Assembly: GCF_000764655.1 (NCBI RefSeq)
Contig: NZ_JRGL01000007.1
Coordinates: 62,001-126,000 of the forward strand
DNA: 64,000 bases
Reading direction: 5' to 3'
Source: Aeromonas aquatica
Lineage (GTDB): Bacteria; Pseudomonadota; Gammaproteobacteria; Enterobacterales; Aeromonadaceae
This document shows positions 18,268 to 30,810 of the stretch, one piece after another. The notes under the pieces were generated by a model. That model was not told the origin of the DNA and ran no database searches. It saw nothing but the letters and a program-made list of their open reading frames with translations. Within the stretch, counting starts at the first letter, position 1. The number at the start of each line of letters is the position of its first letter. Position numbers and translations under genes: made by a program.

Positions 18268-18617
18268 GGTATCAATCCTTAAAATTGTGGGGTCGAAAGC
18301 CGGTGCTTTCCTGCCCCTCATCAGCTGATGAATGCCTCAAATGGGGATAAACAAGAGACTTTTCAAGGCATGTCATCCTCAAAGGTGACAGGAGTCTCCA
18401 ACAAGCCTTGCCGATCCCTGCGGGCCTAGATTACCCCAATCATTTTCTCTCAAACAGCACCCTGGATGCCAGATGGCCAGCATGAAAGCGCTCGCTGCCG
18501 GGGCTGGATTACCTTGTCCATTTTCTCTCGAGCAGCTCCCTGGATGCCAGATAGCCAGTATGAGAGAGCACATCCAGCCCCTACAACAAGCCAACTGTCG
18601 GGGCCGGATTACCTTCT
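18268..18617. other. 350-bp gap between relA and rlmD
   Basis: No gene is seen. The rlmD-proximal 200 bp is occupied by two degenerate extra copies of the rlmD 3' end (separate repeat entry). The 140 bp next to relA should hold the relA leader; I see no near-consensus promoter there. Confidence 0.6.
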
Positions 18618-18666
18618 TTATTTTCTCTCAAACAGCGCCATGGATTCCAGATGGCCGGTGTGAGGG
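18412..18666 (-). repeat. Three tandem copies of the rlmD 3' terminus
   Basis: A unit of about 60-78 bp occurs three times, with core starts near 18429, 18507 and 18607 (periods 78 and 100). The third copy is the real end of rlmD, coding HTGHLESMALFERK then stop. In the same reading sense the other two code SHTGYLASRELLERKWTR-stop and FHAGHLASRVLFERK-stop. Identity looks about 80-85 percent by eye. The copies keep the tail sequence and a stop although they lie outside the gene. Confidence 0.9.
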
Positions 18667-19940
18667 AACATGTCCAGCATCCCCAGGCGGGTCAGCCGGT
18701 AGCCCTCTTTCACCAGCACCTGACTGTCCCGCGCCAGGGTGACCGGGTTACAGGAAACATAGACCACCCGTTTCGGGGAAAGTGCCGCCACGTGGCTCAT
18801 CACCTCCAGCGCACCTGGCCTGGCCGGATCCAGCAAGACCAGGTCAAAGCCTTCCCGCGCCCAGGACATGCCGACGATGTCACCGCTCAAGTCCGCCTTG
18901 TAGAAGCGGGCGTTGTCGATGCCGTTGCGACGGGCGTTTTCTTCGGCGCGCGCCACCATGGCCAGCTCCCCCTCGACCCCCACCACCTCGCGGGCCTGAC
19001 GGGCCAGCGGCAGGGTGAAGTTGCCGATGCCGCAGAACAGATCCAGCACCTTGTCATCCTTGGTCGCCCCCAGCCAGGACAGCGCCTGGGCAACCATGCT
19101 CTGGTTGATGGGACCATTGACCTGAATGAAGTCACCGGGGGCGAATGCAAGAGCCAGGCCATCGAGGGAATAGCTCGGCTGGAATTGCTGACGCAGGGGT
19201 TCTATCTGCTCGTCCGCGGCCTGCAGGTAGAGATCGATGCCCTGAGCCTCGGCAAACTCCACCAGCAGGGCGCGGTCCATCTCGTTGGGGCGGCCGGTGT
19301 GGCGCAGCAGCATCATGATGCCCTGCTCGGCCTGGATGAACTCGGCATGACCCAGCTCACGCTGGCTCTTGAGGCGATTGAGACAGTCGCGCAGCGGGTT
19401 GATGAGGGCAGACAGGGGCGCGCTCAGCACGGGACAACCGCTGATCTCCACCAGGTCATTGGACTGGCGACGGCGGAAGCCGACCCGGGTGCAGCGACCG
19501 TTCTTGTCAAACTTGATGGCCAGGCGGCAGACCCGGCGATAGGCACGGGACTCGCCGGTCAGCACGGGCTCCAGCGTCGGTGCCTGGATGTTGCCGAGCC
19601 GCTCGAACAGGCTGACCAGCCCGGCCTCCTTGACCGCCTGCTGATCCGCTTCGCCGAGGTGCTGGGCACTGCAACCGCCGCACTCGCGATAATGGGGGCA
19701 GAAGGGATCGATGCGATTGGCCGCCGGGGTCACTATCTGTTGCAGGGCGGCGTGGGCATAGTGCTTCTTGTCATCGACGATGCGAGCCTTGATCAGCTCA
19801 CCGGGGAGTGCCCCTTCGACGAAGATGGCCTTGCCCTGATGACGGCCGACACCGACACAGTGGTGGTCCAGACTGTCTATCGTAAATTCAATACGTTGGG
19901 GCTGGGTGGATTTCTTTTGGGGCTTGAAAAACTGGGCCAT
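18618..19940 (-). CDS. rlmD: 23S rRNA (uracil(1939)-C5)-methyltransferase RlmD
   Basis: SAM-dependent methyltransferase that makes m5U1939 in 23S rRNA. 440 aa. It has an N-terminal TRAM domain (EFTIDSLDHHCVGVGRHQGK), the four-Cys iron-sulfur cluster region (CPHYRECGGCSAQH), the SAM motif VLDLFCGIGNFTLPLA, and the catalytic Cys in YVSCNPVTLARD. It is divergent from barA. Its last ~20 codons are duplicated twice downstream. Confidence 0.97.
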   Translation of the reverse strand: MAQFFKPQKKSTQPQRIEFTIDSLDHHCVGVGRHQGKAIFVEGALPGELIKARIVDDKKHYAHAALQQIVTPAANRIDPFCPHYRECGGCSAQHLGEADQQAVKEAGLVSLFERLGNIQAPTLEPVLTGESRAYRRVCRLAIKFDKNGRCTRVGFRRRQSNDLVEISGCPVLSAPLSALINPLRDCLNRLKSQRELGHAEFIQAEQGIMMLLRHTGRPNEMDRALLVEFAEAQGIDLYLQAADEQIEPLRQQFQPSYSLDGLALAFAPGDFIQVNGPINQSMVAQALSWLGATKDDKVLDLFCGIGNFTLPLARQAREVVGVEGELAMVARAEENARRNGIDNARFYKADLSGDIVGMSWAREGFDLVLLDPARPGALEVMSHVAALSPKRVVYVSCNPVTLARDSQVLVKEGYRLTRLGMLDMFPHTGHLESMALFERK

Positions 19941-20016
19941 AAAACTTGGTGCCTATAGGTGGCTATGTCATGATTGTGGAATCTGCAGCAGGCCATTGTC
20001 CCACAAGAATAATAGT

Positions 20017-20181
20017 ATGACCAAATACGGTCTGAGGGCCCGGGCTGTGGCATTCAACCCTATCGCCAATGCTGACCATAAGTGGCCCATGGATATGACC
20101 CGATACGGCCCCCAAGCCCGTGCTGCAATGACCCTTATCTTCCTGCCCATCTTCATCATCGCCGGTGGTTTATCAGCATGA
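20017..20181 (+). other. 54-codon upstream frame made of two barA 5'-end copies
   Basis: An open frame starts ATG at 20017 and ends in a TGA that overlaps the barA ATG (ATGA). It reads MTKYGLRARAVAF..., then MTRYGPQARAAMTLIFLPIF..., two imperfect repeats of the barA N-terminus MTRYGLRARVLAFTILP. The second half would make a single hydrophobic segment. There is no clear Shine-Dalgarno, so it may be untranslated debris or a leader coupled to barA. Confidence 0.35.
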
Positions 20182-28764: not shown

Positions 28765-28767
28765 CGA

Positions 28768-30561
28768 TTAGTCCTTGCCTACGTGGAGGATAGCGAGGAA
28801 GGCCTCTTGCGGCACGTCGACACGGCCGACAGACTTCATCCGCTTCTTGCCTTCTTTCTGCTTGTTCAACAGCTTCTTCTTCCGGCTCACGTCACCACCG
28901 TAACACTTGGCGGTCACGTCTTTGCGCAGGGCCTTGACGGTGCTGCGGGCGATGATCTGGTTGCCGATAGACGCCTGAATCGCGATGTCGAACATCTGGC
29001 GCGGGATCAGCTCACGCATCTTCTCCACCACCTGGCGACCGCGATACTGGGCGTTCTCCTTGTGGGTGATGATGGCCAGAGCATCGACGCGCTCGCCGTT
29101 GATCATGATGTCGAGGCGCACCATGTCGGAGGTCTCGAAGCGTTTGAAGCCGTAATCCAGGGAGGCGTAGCCACGACTGGTGGACTTGAGGCGGTCGAAG
29201 AAATCGAGCACCACTTCCGCCATCGGGATCTCGTAGGTCAGCGCCACCTGCTTGCCGTGGTAGACCATGTTGGTTTGCACGCCACGCTTCTCGATACAGA
29301 GGGTGATGACGTTGCCCATGTACTCCTGCGGCAGCAGGATGTTGCACTCGGCGATGGGCTCGCGCATCTCCTTGATGTTGTTGACCGGAGGCATGGCGGA
29401 CGGGCTGTCGATGTGGATGGTCGAGCCGTCGTTGAGCTCGATTTCATACACTACGGTCGGCGCCGTGGTGATCAGATCCAGATCGTATTCCCGCTCCAGC
29501 CGCTCCTGGATGATCTCCATGTGCAGCATGCCGAGGAAGCCACAACGGAAGCCGAAGCCCAGCGCGGTGGAGCTTTCCGGCTCGAAGAACAGGGAGGCAT
29601 CGTTGAGGGACAGCTTGTCCAGCGCATCGCGGAAGGACTCATAGTCGTCGCTGGAGATGGGGAACAGGCCCGCATACACCTGCGGCTTGACCTTCTTGAA
29701 GCCCGCCAGCACCTTGTCGGCACCGTTCTTGGCCTGCGTCAGGGTGTCACCCACCGGCGCACCGTGGATGTCCTTGATGCCGCAGACGACCCAACCTACC
29801 TCGCCACAACCCAGGCCCATGGTGTCCACCTGCTTGGGCGTGAAGATACCGATGCGATCGACACCCCACACCTGACCGGTGCTCATCACCTTGATCTTGT
29901 CGTTCTTCTTGAGCGAACCGTTCTTGATGCGCACCAGGGAGACGACGCCCAGATAGGAGTCGAACCAGGAGTCGATGATCAGCGCCTGCAGCGGTGCATC
30001 GGGATCACCGACCGGCGCCGGAATGCGGGCCACTATCTCTTCGAGCACCAGATCGACACCCAGGCCGGTCTTGGCGGAGCAGCGCACCGCCTCCATGGCA
30101 TCGATACCGACGATGTCTTCGATCTCTTCGGCGACCCGCTCGGGTTCGGCAGCCGGCAGATCGATCTTGTTCAGGATTGGCACTACTTCCAGCTCCATCT
30201 CCATGGCGGTGTAGCAGTTGGCCAGAGTCTGTGCCTCAACCCCCTGACCGGCATCCACCACCAGCAGCGCCCCTTCACAGGCCGCCAATGAGCGGGAGAC
30301 TTCGTAGGAGAAATCCACGTGGCCGGGGGTGTCGATAAAGTTCAGCTGGTAGGTGTTACCGTCTTGTGCCTGGTAGTTCAGGGTCACACTCTGTGCTTTG
30401 ATGGTAATGCCGCGCTCGCGCTCCAGATCCATGGAGTCAAGCACCTGAGCCTGCATCTCGCGGGAGGACAGGCCGCCGCAAGTCTGGATCAGACGGTCCG
30501 ACAGGGTCGATTTACCGTGGTCGATGTGCGCAATAATCGAAAAGTTACGAATGTATTTCAT
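28768..30561 (-). CDS. lepA: Elongation factor 4 (LepA)
   Basis: Translational GTPase that binds the ribosome; proposed to act in back-translocation or in 30S biogenesis. 597 aa from [20 protein letters not shown] motifs [16 protein letters not shown] and NKIDLP are present, and the LepA-specific C-terminal domain ([20 protein letters not shown]) is intact. The preceding Shine-Dalgarno is weak. It lies downstream of the broken rseC. Confidence 0.98.
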
Positions 30562-30679
30562 CGAGCAAGAATCACTCAAAATTAAGTTAGGGTCGGATAT
30601 GAGGGCAGGATTTTACTGGATAACCCGGTCGACGGCCAATCTTTAGTCGACGGGCACCAGAAATAGCACCTTGCCAATC

Positions 30680-30810
30680 ACGCGTGCTGGCTGGCATAGA
30701 GCGCCACGCCGAGCATGAAAGAGCCAGAAATCGAATCTGGCCAGTGTCAGGAGAGGTGGCGGGTACTGAGGACCACACCGAGCATGCGAGGACCATATTC
30801 CCCTTGCTCT
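30680..30810 (-). repeat. Probable duplicate of the rseC 3' terminus
   Basis: Two segments offset by about 69 bp (gagcatg anchors at 30711 and 30780) align over roughly 45 bp at about 65-75 percent. The rseC tail codes RMLGVVLSTRHLS-stop. The downstream copy codes FMLGVALYASQHA-stop. Similarity is weaker than in the recO and rlmD cases. Confidence 0.65.

Follow-up and report, generated by a model that had tools for sequence, protein, structure and literature searches.

Results

Duplicated gene ends in a 64-kb window of Aeromonas aquatica

The DNA considered here, called the window throughout, is a 64-kb stretch of the Aeromonas aquatica genome (positions 62001-126000 of its contig C139), and our subject is the short tandem copies of gene ends that stand at several of its gene borders. 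Such copies show a genus-wide excess in Aeromonas, several of them are shared among species, and where the two genes of a border overlap, the inserted unit usually forms a small open reading frame (ORF) that seems to relay ribosomes from the upstream gene to the downstream one. An earlier note on this DNA had listed tandem copies of the 3' ends of rlmD (three copies), recO (two) and rnc (two), of the 5' end of barA (three), and probably of the 3' end of rseC (two). Self-alignment of positions 17800-31500, and then of the whole window, recovers all of the first four, which are the top self-matches of the 64 kb (best scores of 50, 31, 23 and 23, the remaining matches scoring 17-21). The gene products were named by NCBIfam as RlmD, BarA, PdxJ, RecO, Era, RNase III, LepA, RseC and NadB, the match of RseC scoring under the family cut-off. 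The genes and copies concerned are the following.

18417..18578, minus strand: rlmD 3' end in two additional, diverged copies, with the stop codon and downstream flank (self-alignment)
18618..19940, minus strand: rlmD, 23S rRNA uracil-1939 methyltransferase (NCBIfam NF009639, 574 bits), its intact 3' end lying within copy 3 (18595-18678)
20178..22898, plus strand: barA, hybrid sensor kinase, intact (NCBIfam NF008318, 1328 bits)
25394..25482, minus strand: extra copy of the recO 3' end inside the recO-pdxJ gap (self-alignment), detected in 4 of 27 genomes
25492..26196, minus strand: recO, intact (NCBIfam TIGR00613, 100.7 bits), its final 80 bp being the source copy
26211..27110, minus strand: era, intact (NCBIfam NF000908, 395 bits)
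27101..27133, minus strand: copy of the rnc tail with the overlapping era start; it now carries the real era start, and the real rnc stop is in the other copy (27163-27195)
27169..27840, minus strand: rnc (RNase III), intact (NCBIfam TIGR02191, 245 bits)
30678..30795, minus strand: possible degraded double copy downstream of rseC, weak (period 69)

The three copies of the rlmD 3' end (18417-18500, 18495-18578 and 18595-18678) are spaced by 78 and 100 bp and have 70-80% identity to the reference copy, and the span of this border among 13 genomes is longer by +0, +100, about +120 to +225 or +298 bp. For recO, 25394-25454 matches 25488-25548 with 75% identity at a spacing of 94, with an additional exact block of 17 bases at a spacing of 90, and for rnc the two copies (27101-27133 and 27163-27195) are 85% identical at a spacing of 62. 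At the 5' end of barA, 20014-20054 and 20175-20215 are 78% identical at a spacing of 161, and a third copy, from the ATG at 20095, lies in between. The rseC pair was also found, but only as a marginal match (30678-30726 with 30747-30795, 69% identity, score 19); of 27 genomes, 9, including that of the window, have a span downstream of rseC that is longer by 40-70 bp. The rseC gene itself (30560-31216) is apparently frame-shifted in the assembly, as its N-terminal part and its conserved C-terminal segment (compare A. eucrenophila) are in different frames, and this reflects either a sequencing error or a broken gene.

The same note had taken the rnc-era and recO-pdxJ junctions to be compact or overlapping in relatives. 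This holds for rnc-era, where 11 of 27 genomes have a plain ATGA overlap and the border is lengthened by about 62 or 65 bases in the remaining 16, or by two units in A. bivalvium; it does not hold for recO-pdxJ, which is not overlapping in the genus. The recO-pdxJ gap is 263 nt in the window, and the shortest of the 27 spans is 663 against 851 in the window, so that about 75 nt remain.

Gene-end duplications in Aeromonas and in other genera

Tandem repeats were scanned as ungapped self-matches at offsets of 20-400 with a score of at least 20 at +1/-1. In three large Aeromonas samples, 1.2 Mb in all (200 kb of contig C139, 600 kb of genome G002 and 400 kb of genome G003), we found 57 clusters outside single genes, and 47 of them touch a gene end (10 of 11, 29 of 34 and 8 of 12, respectively). 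The 57 clusters, which retain a tRNA-Tyr array, short-period runs and an apparent paralogue pair, have a median period of 100 bp, with 40 of the periods falling within 60-135 bp, and the identity between copies has a median of 83%, reaching 97% or more in 4 cases. Another 39 clusters, 36 at gene ends, lie in 26 Aeromonas loci around rnc (520 kb). Other genera, pooled to about 1.89 Mb, have 28 clusters with 7 at gene ends; the 57 and 47 of Aeromonas come from a hexamer gene caller, and all non-Aeromonas counts, like the gapped test and the loose relay test described below, from an earlier caller that placed lepA on the wrong strand and missed rnc. The pooled figure is made up of five other genera (400 kb, 4 clusters, none at a gene end), twenty families (400 kb, 4 clusters, 2 at gene ends), 36 rnc-region loci of other genera (686,051 bp, 7 clusters, 2 at gene ends), and Zobellella, Oceanisphaera and a metagenome-assembled genome (MAG) of the Aeromonadaceae (399 kb, 13 clusters, 3 at gene ends, two of them with period 21). 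For the outgroup rnc-region loci and the twenty-family loci the gene caller was trained separately on each 20-kb locus.

The third gene-end cluster of the latter sample is from Oceanisphaera (L165:4279) and has a period of 100. Oceanisphaera alone has 10 clusters in 160 kb, a density equal to that of Aeromonas, with 8 of the 10 off called gene ends, and these repeats suggest that a related tendency may extend beyond Aeromonas. That the long repeats of Zobellella and Oceanisphaera are tRNA arrays was rejected, a tRNA search having found no tRNA genes in those loci. For repeats inside genes, every period is divisible by three in the three large Aeromonas samples (8, 24 and 8 repeats), and 3 of 11 periods are not divisible by three in the 26 rnc-region loci, where the first gene caller was used.

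A gapped test compared each gene end with its own outside flank at a score of at least 22, with the inverted flank and flanks exchanged among genes as controls. In Aeromonas a direct copy of the gene's own terminus is present at 40 of 1045 3' ends and 19 of 1038 5' ends, versus 0 of 652 and 0 of 668 in other genera (Fisher 4e-9 for 3' ends, 1.4e-4 for 5' ends). Of the Aeromonas ends tested, 411 (3') and 405 (5') are not independent, coming as they do from a single region sampled in 26 genomes. With that region excluded, the Aeromonas counts are 24 of 634 and 10 of 633. Both controls, run on the Aeromonas ends at this score, gave 0 matches, and we therefore reject chance similarity. At a score of 19, Aeromonas has 48 (3') and 22 (5') real matches, with 3 inverted 3', 2 exchanged 3' and 1 exchanged 5' match among the controls; other genera have 1 real 5' match, from the Photobacterium group, and 1 exchanged 3' match, from a sister genus. 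The earlier note had named, as grounds for giving up the duplications, a genome-wide scan in which they are no commoner than chance; over the 1.2 Mb scanned, taken from three genomes rather than from one whole genome, they are commoner. Among the titles listed in searches of the open-licence literature, none deals with such duplications in Aeromonas.

Within the genus, the 20-kb rnc regions richest in repeats are those of A. lusitana (five) and A. eucrenophila (four), and at score 20 those of A. enteropelogenes, A. finlandensis, A. sobria, A. fluvialis, A. caviae, A. lacus and a MAG are free of repeats outside genes, the rnc-era unit of A. sobria and A. caviae being present under that score. 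Apart from these repeats, a perfect hexanucleotide repeat (TCTTCG x5.3) lies at 554-585 of the window within predicted reading frames. A separate dispersed hairpin repeat of ~45 bp, which looks REP-type, lies in genome G002 (L140:15516-15600, fold of -37.4 kcal/mol); a query containing it gave at least 6-28 matches, among those listed, in 14 of 16 Aeromonas genomes.

Relay reading frames at duplicated junctions

At overlapping gene pairs, the inserted unit is composed of the head of the downstream gene and the tail of the upstream gene, and it forms a reading frame of 13-40 codons that leads from the stop of the upstream gene to the start of the downstream one. Three regions of the window carry such relay micro-ORFs or related frames.

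20017..20181, plus strand: micro-ORF of 54 codons upstream of barA, with two copies of the barA start (ATG 20017, 20095); its TGA overlaps the barA ATG (ATGA)
27107..27172, minus strand: rnc-era relay micro-ORF of 21 codons, starting on the ATGA of the rnc stop and ending on the ATGA of the era start
63882..64000, plus strand: triple junction duplication of period 112 at the end of ORF 63266-63931, running past the window edge (contig C139:125868-126178), with two 43-codon relay micro-ORFs

To count these frames we defined a strict relay as an ATG or GTG frame of at least 11 codons plus a stop, which starts at -21 to +3 at the upstream stop and ends at -3 to +21 at the downstream start, in co-directional pairs with gaps of 28-130 nt. 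By this criterion, which was fixed after the result of a looser one was known, relay frames are present at 14 of 16 duplicated junctions versus 22 of 207 others (Fisher 6.5e-11), and at 12 of 14 in a non-redundant set without the orthologous rnc repeat and a case of period 282 (1.9e-9). Under the loose criterion, with gaps of 30-350, the corresponding counts are 15 of 25 and 89 of 238. Without the period-282 case, both ends of 8 of the 13 relays are within about the -4 to +3 nt range of coupling (-4/+4, -1/+1, +2/+1), and the other 5 have longer overlaps of 7-20 nt, a kind of overlap at which coupling is less efficient. Among the 12 distinct junctions where the unit restores an overlap of 1-20 nt, 11 have a period in the required frame, against an expectation of one third (binomial p 4.7e-5). 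This count omits the compound period 224 at C139:125.9k, the single units of which are in frame, and includes the compound period 136 at G002:218466 as its single failure; at one of the 11 in-frame junctions, G002:210760, the predicted frame has stops and another relay frame is present.

Reading the frames in multiple genomes shows how they are kept. The rnc-era relay frame, of 21 or 22 codons, is found in all 16 genomes with the duplication, starting at the rnc stop with ATGA or GTGA and ending on the ATGA of the era start; the length differences are 3 bp, and the two alternative frames of the span are open in 0 and 5 of the 16. A. bivalvium, with its two units, has two relay frames in tandem. 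In contrast to the rnc tail, where variability at the three codon positions is 0.04/0.035/0.295, the micro-ORF varies evenly [0.093/0.117/0.077 and 0.216/0.219/0.19 for two length classes; of the 16 sequences 14 were used, and the two that have an additional inner start were excluded by length]. No selection at the peptide level is seen in the codon-position variation of these 14 sequences, and so the frame is kept while the peptide looks unconstrained. An ORF ending on the barA ATGA is present in all 13 genomes that have the region, and in most genomes one or two upstream frames terminate at the ATGA of the following start. The first frame is shifted in A. tecta and A. lusitana, where it ends on an internal ATGA and a second frame continues to barA. 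At ilvI-ilvH, 6 of the 12 genomes read have a relay frame of 24-30 codons and the other 6 a plain junction, and the gaps with a relay (79, 79, 79, 79, 91 and 73) differ by multiples of three throughout. Among the 10 genomes read at ispD-ispF, a relay runs from the ispD stop in 3 (two of them with a TTG start) and 2 have a plain overlap. The loci parsed in this reading were 10 of 16 for ispD-ispF, 12 of 16 for ilvI-ilvH and 5 of 11 for C139:125.9k, the rest being dropped.

History of the duplications

Comparison of the rnc-region spans across 27 genomes shows that several duplications are common to multiple species, with a copy number that varies from 0 to 3 extra. The copies adjoin their source, and relatives have a plain junction in the same place, as with the +62 or +65 bases at rnc-era versus the ATGA overlap, and at nadB. 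By eye, all 16 rnc-era duplications have the same 10-base insertion in the copy, which points to a single origin followed by losses or exchange. Together with the rnc tail, this insertion makes up an inverted repeat (GTCTTTC/GAAAGAC) in some species, the outcome expected of a quasipalindrome template switch. The nadB border, which carries no copy in the window, is as follows.

35280..35370, strand unassigned: nadB 3' border, with no duplication in the window and a duplication of 105-118 bp in 6 of 25 Aeromonas genomes compared

The spacer between the nadB copies is related across the species concerned; no copy was detected in the remaining genomes of the 25, and A. caviae keeps a 20-base remnant. 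The 3' end of a response-regulator gene has extra copies in 6 of 13 genomes read (13 of 16 loci parsed), and the likeness of its tail to its own copy is 0.956 within a genome against 0.858 to the copies of other genomes, a value reached in 1 of 720 permutations. The nadB permutation gave 6 of 720, and concerted evolution is thus seen at 2 of 6 loci, these being the response-regulator 3' end and nadB; we reject the proposal that every copy is maintained by it. Most of the duplications are old, with turnover of copy number and, at some loci, conversion. The old duplications that species share reflect either one event with subsequent conversion or repeated events at the same place.

Discussion

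Coupled genes and the survival of junction duplications

We consider it probable that these are local tandem duplications across gene termini, retained genus-wide, and that at overlapping pairs they were kept as in-frame relay micro-cistrons which preserve translational coupling. A segment, mostly of 60-135 bp, that takes in the end of one gene (A), the start of the next (B), or both would be copied in place. Since one copy retains the stop and the other retains the start, both genes would stay intact, and mainly border copies would survive. The number of copies in the array may then fluctuate from one to about four, and recombination or conversion would, at some loci, keep a gene tail similar to its copy. 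Where A and B overlap (ATGA, TGATG or longer), the new unit would be a chimeric micro-cistron with the head of B at the stop of A and the tail of A at the start of B. Such a unit would persist mainly with an open frame, because a ribosome that is done with A could translate the micro-ORF and terminate at the start of B, and coupling would be kept across the extra 35-120 nt. A unit with an open frame would restore the close stop-start spacing twice, and most survivors look like such units. In reporter work summarised in a review of coupling (PMC12548453), coupling is most effective at -4 to +3 nt and has dropped 3-10-fold at about +40 nt. Judged from the arrangement of codons, coupling appears to be preserved rather than relieved at duplicated overlaps, and we infer that the micro-ORFs are translated and kept for coupling. 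With rather less than even confidence, we suggest further that in Aeromonas a lineage-specific process keeps making tandem duplications of 60-135 bp, and that coupled operons used them to give birth to relay micro-cistrons, possibly setting the ratios of neighbouring proteins.

Several points weigh against this interpretation. The strict criterion was set with the loose result in hand, and with gaps of 100-350 nt the loose criterion shows no excess of relay chains (4 of 14 versus 49 of 148), so that the relay rule applies to only part of the duplications. Two of the 16 junctions fail the strict test, namely G002:176329 and ispD-ispF (in the latter, TTG is the start codon of the relay from ispD), and among the 14 that pass, the one with period 282 probably does not represent a junction duplication. 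No relay chain is present in the three-copy array at G002:218466, which recreates an ATGA overlap and whose gap of 132 nt is just outside the strict range. At ispD-ispF, 5 of the 10 genomes read are without a tight chain from ispD; 3 of these 5 carry copies of the ispF start with a period of 77, and in two of the three the copies continue as far as the next ATGA. At rnc, recO, rlmD and barA the likeness within genomes exceeds that between genomes by only 0.004-0.014, no permutation was run, and concerted evolution was not seen. The density of repeats is uneven within the genus, 7 of the 26 rnc-region loci having none at score 20, and the dependence among the ends of that region, noted above, affects the gapped test. 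A breakpoint microhomology could be read in one case only (CAAG, at the A. eucrenophila nadB junction, by eye), the other copies being too diverged.

Alternative explanations

A different source of the second terminus is an unlikely explanation, namely horizontal replacement, in which recombination with the orthologue of another Aeromonas and illegitimate joining at the gene end would leave a remnant of the resident terminus. Since spacers differ between species, it predicts homology that stops at the stop codon, and copies as diverged as orthologues from the outset. The homology does often stop at or near the stop codon, and near-identical copies are rare, as the median identity of 83% and the 4 of 57 at 97% or more indicate. 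However, the response-regulator and nadB tails are nearer to their own copy than to the copies of other species, the units at overlapping pairs contain the head of the next gene, arrays have three and four copies of one unit, and the range of periods is narrow.

Neutral tandem duplication, filtered only by not breaking genes and with relay frames as by-products, would account for the survivors at borders and for the 40 in-gene repeats with periods that are all multiples of 3, and it agrees with the missing full relay at G002:218466 and, in some genomes, at ispD-ispF. We regard it as improbable in view of the 11 of 12 junctions in frame where 1 in 3 is expected, and of an rnc-era relay frame present in 16 of 16 genomes with length differences of 3n.

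The earlier note had proposed selection to decouple overlapping genes through an added spacer, which would fit the several affected pairs that overlap in copy-free species. This proposal now seems very improbable, because 14 of 16 duplicated junctions keep stop-start overlaps with an open frame that is kept across species, the overlap usually being recreated on both sides. Moreover, among the Aeromonas borders of the 1.2 Mb, convergent ones are affected (8 of 154) about as often as co-directional ones (38 of 675), with divergent ones at 6 of 154. Hardly any credence can be given to a dispersed short repeat (MIRU, REP or ERIC type) inserted at the borders, the unnamed element of the same note, even though mycobacterial interspersed repetitive units (MIRUs) carry, according to PMC12548453, a small ORF that is coupled at -4 nt to the gene they invade. 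The Aeromonas units match their own flanking genes and are unlike across borders: only six pairs of the 57 units compared all-against-all score at least 20, four of these being the same border in our genome and G002 and two being weaker (24 and 23).

Origin and significance

Our preferred reading remains local duplication with the retention of in-frame relays at overlapping pairs, and a common mechanism, which the earlier note had supposed, is reasonable because the duplications recur, exceed chance and are found genome- and genus-wide. For the mechanism itself, microhomology slippage or template switching is our guess, as is any reason for the proneness of Aeromonas. Ku-dependent end joining was considered and rejected, as a search for PF02735 that is positive in a B. 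subtilis control gave no match in any of 41 genomes, 25 of which are Aeromonas.

Extrapolation from the 47 gene-end repeats in 1.2 Mb would give somewhat under 200 gene-end duplications per genome and a few dozen relays. Coupling has so far been measured mostly in reporters, and Aeromonas offers natural insertions of 35-120 nt between overlapping genes across a whole genus; as most of the surviving insertions keep the path of the ribosome, they would speak, on evolutionary grounds, for coupling at rnc-era, ilvI-ilvH and similar pairs. Junction duplication is also a route by which new short reading frames may arise within operons, and the excess of small tandem duplications in one genus makes a question of DNA repair testable.

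Comparison with known systems

The attachment sites of integrative elements likewise show a duplicate of a gene 3' end next to the intact gene. The Aeromonas copies differ from such remnants in that their spacing of about 100 bp is too short to accommodate an element and that 5' ends are affected too. With tandem duplication by slippage or template switching they share direct repeats of tens to hundreds of bp formed in place, changes in copy number and precise loss; they differ in being far commoner than in the other genera sampled and in being retained across the genus. The relays have the same codon arrangements as translational coupling (ATGA and TGATG overlaps, and delivery of ribosomes by upstream ORFs), with a short ORF in a presumed ribosome-delivery role, but in Aeromonas this ORF arises by duplication of the junction and bridges genes that overlap in relatives.

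The closest known parallel to the Aeromonas relays is provided by the MIRUs, whose units measure 46-101 bp. MIRUs are a dispersed, apparently mobile family, whereas the Aeromonas units are built from their own neighbouring genes, to which they match, arguing against mobile insertion, and the 57 units do not form one sequence family. According to PMC12548453, the mycobacterial MIRUs go into start codons and bring an ORF coupled at -4 nt, as a result of which the insertion is probably of little harm. The likeness lies in a short unit with a small ORF that overlaps the neighbouring stop and start; in Aeromonas such an ORF shows no excess at larger gaps and is found at 14 of the 16 duplicated junctions in the 28-130 nt range.

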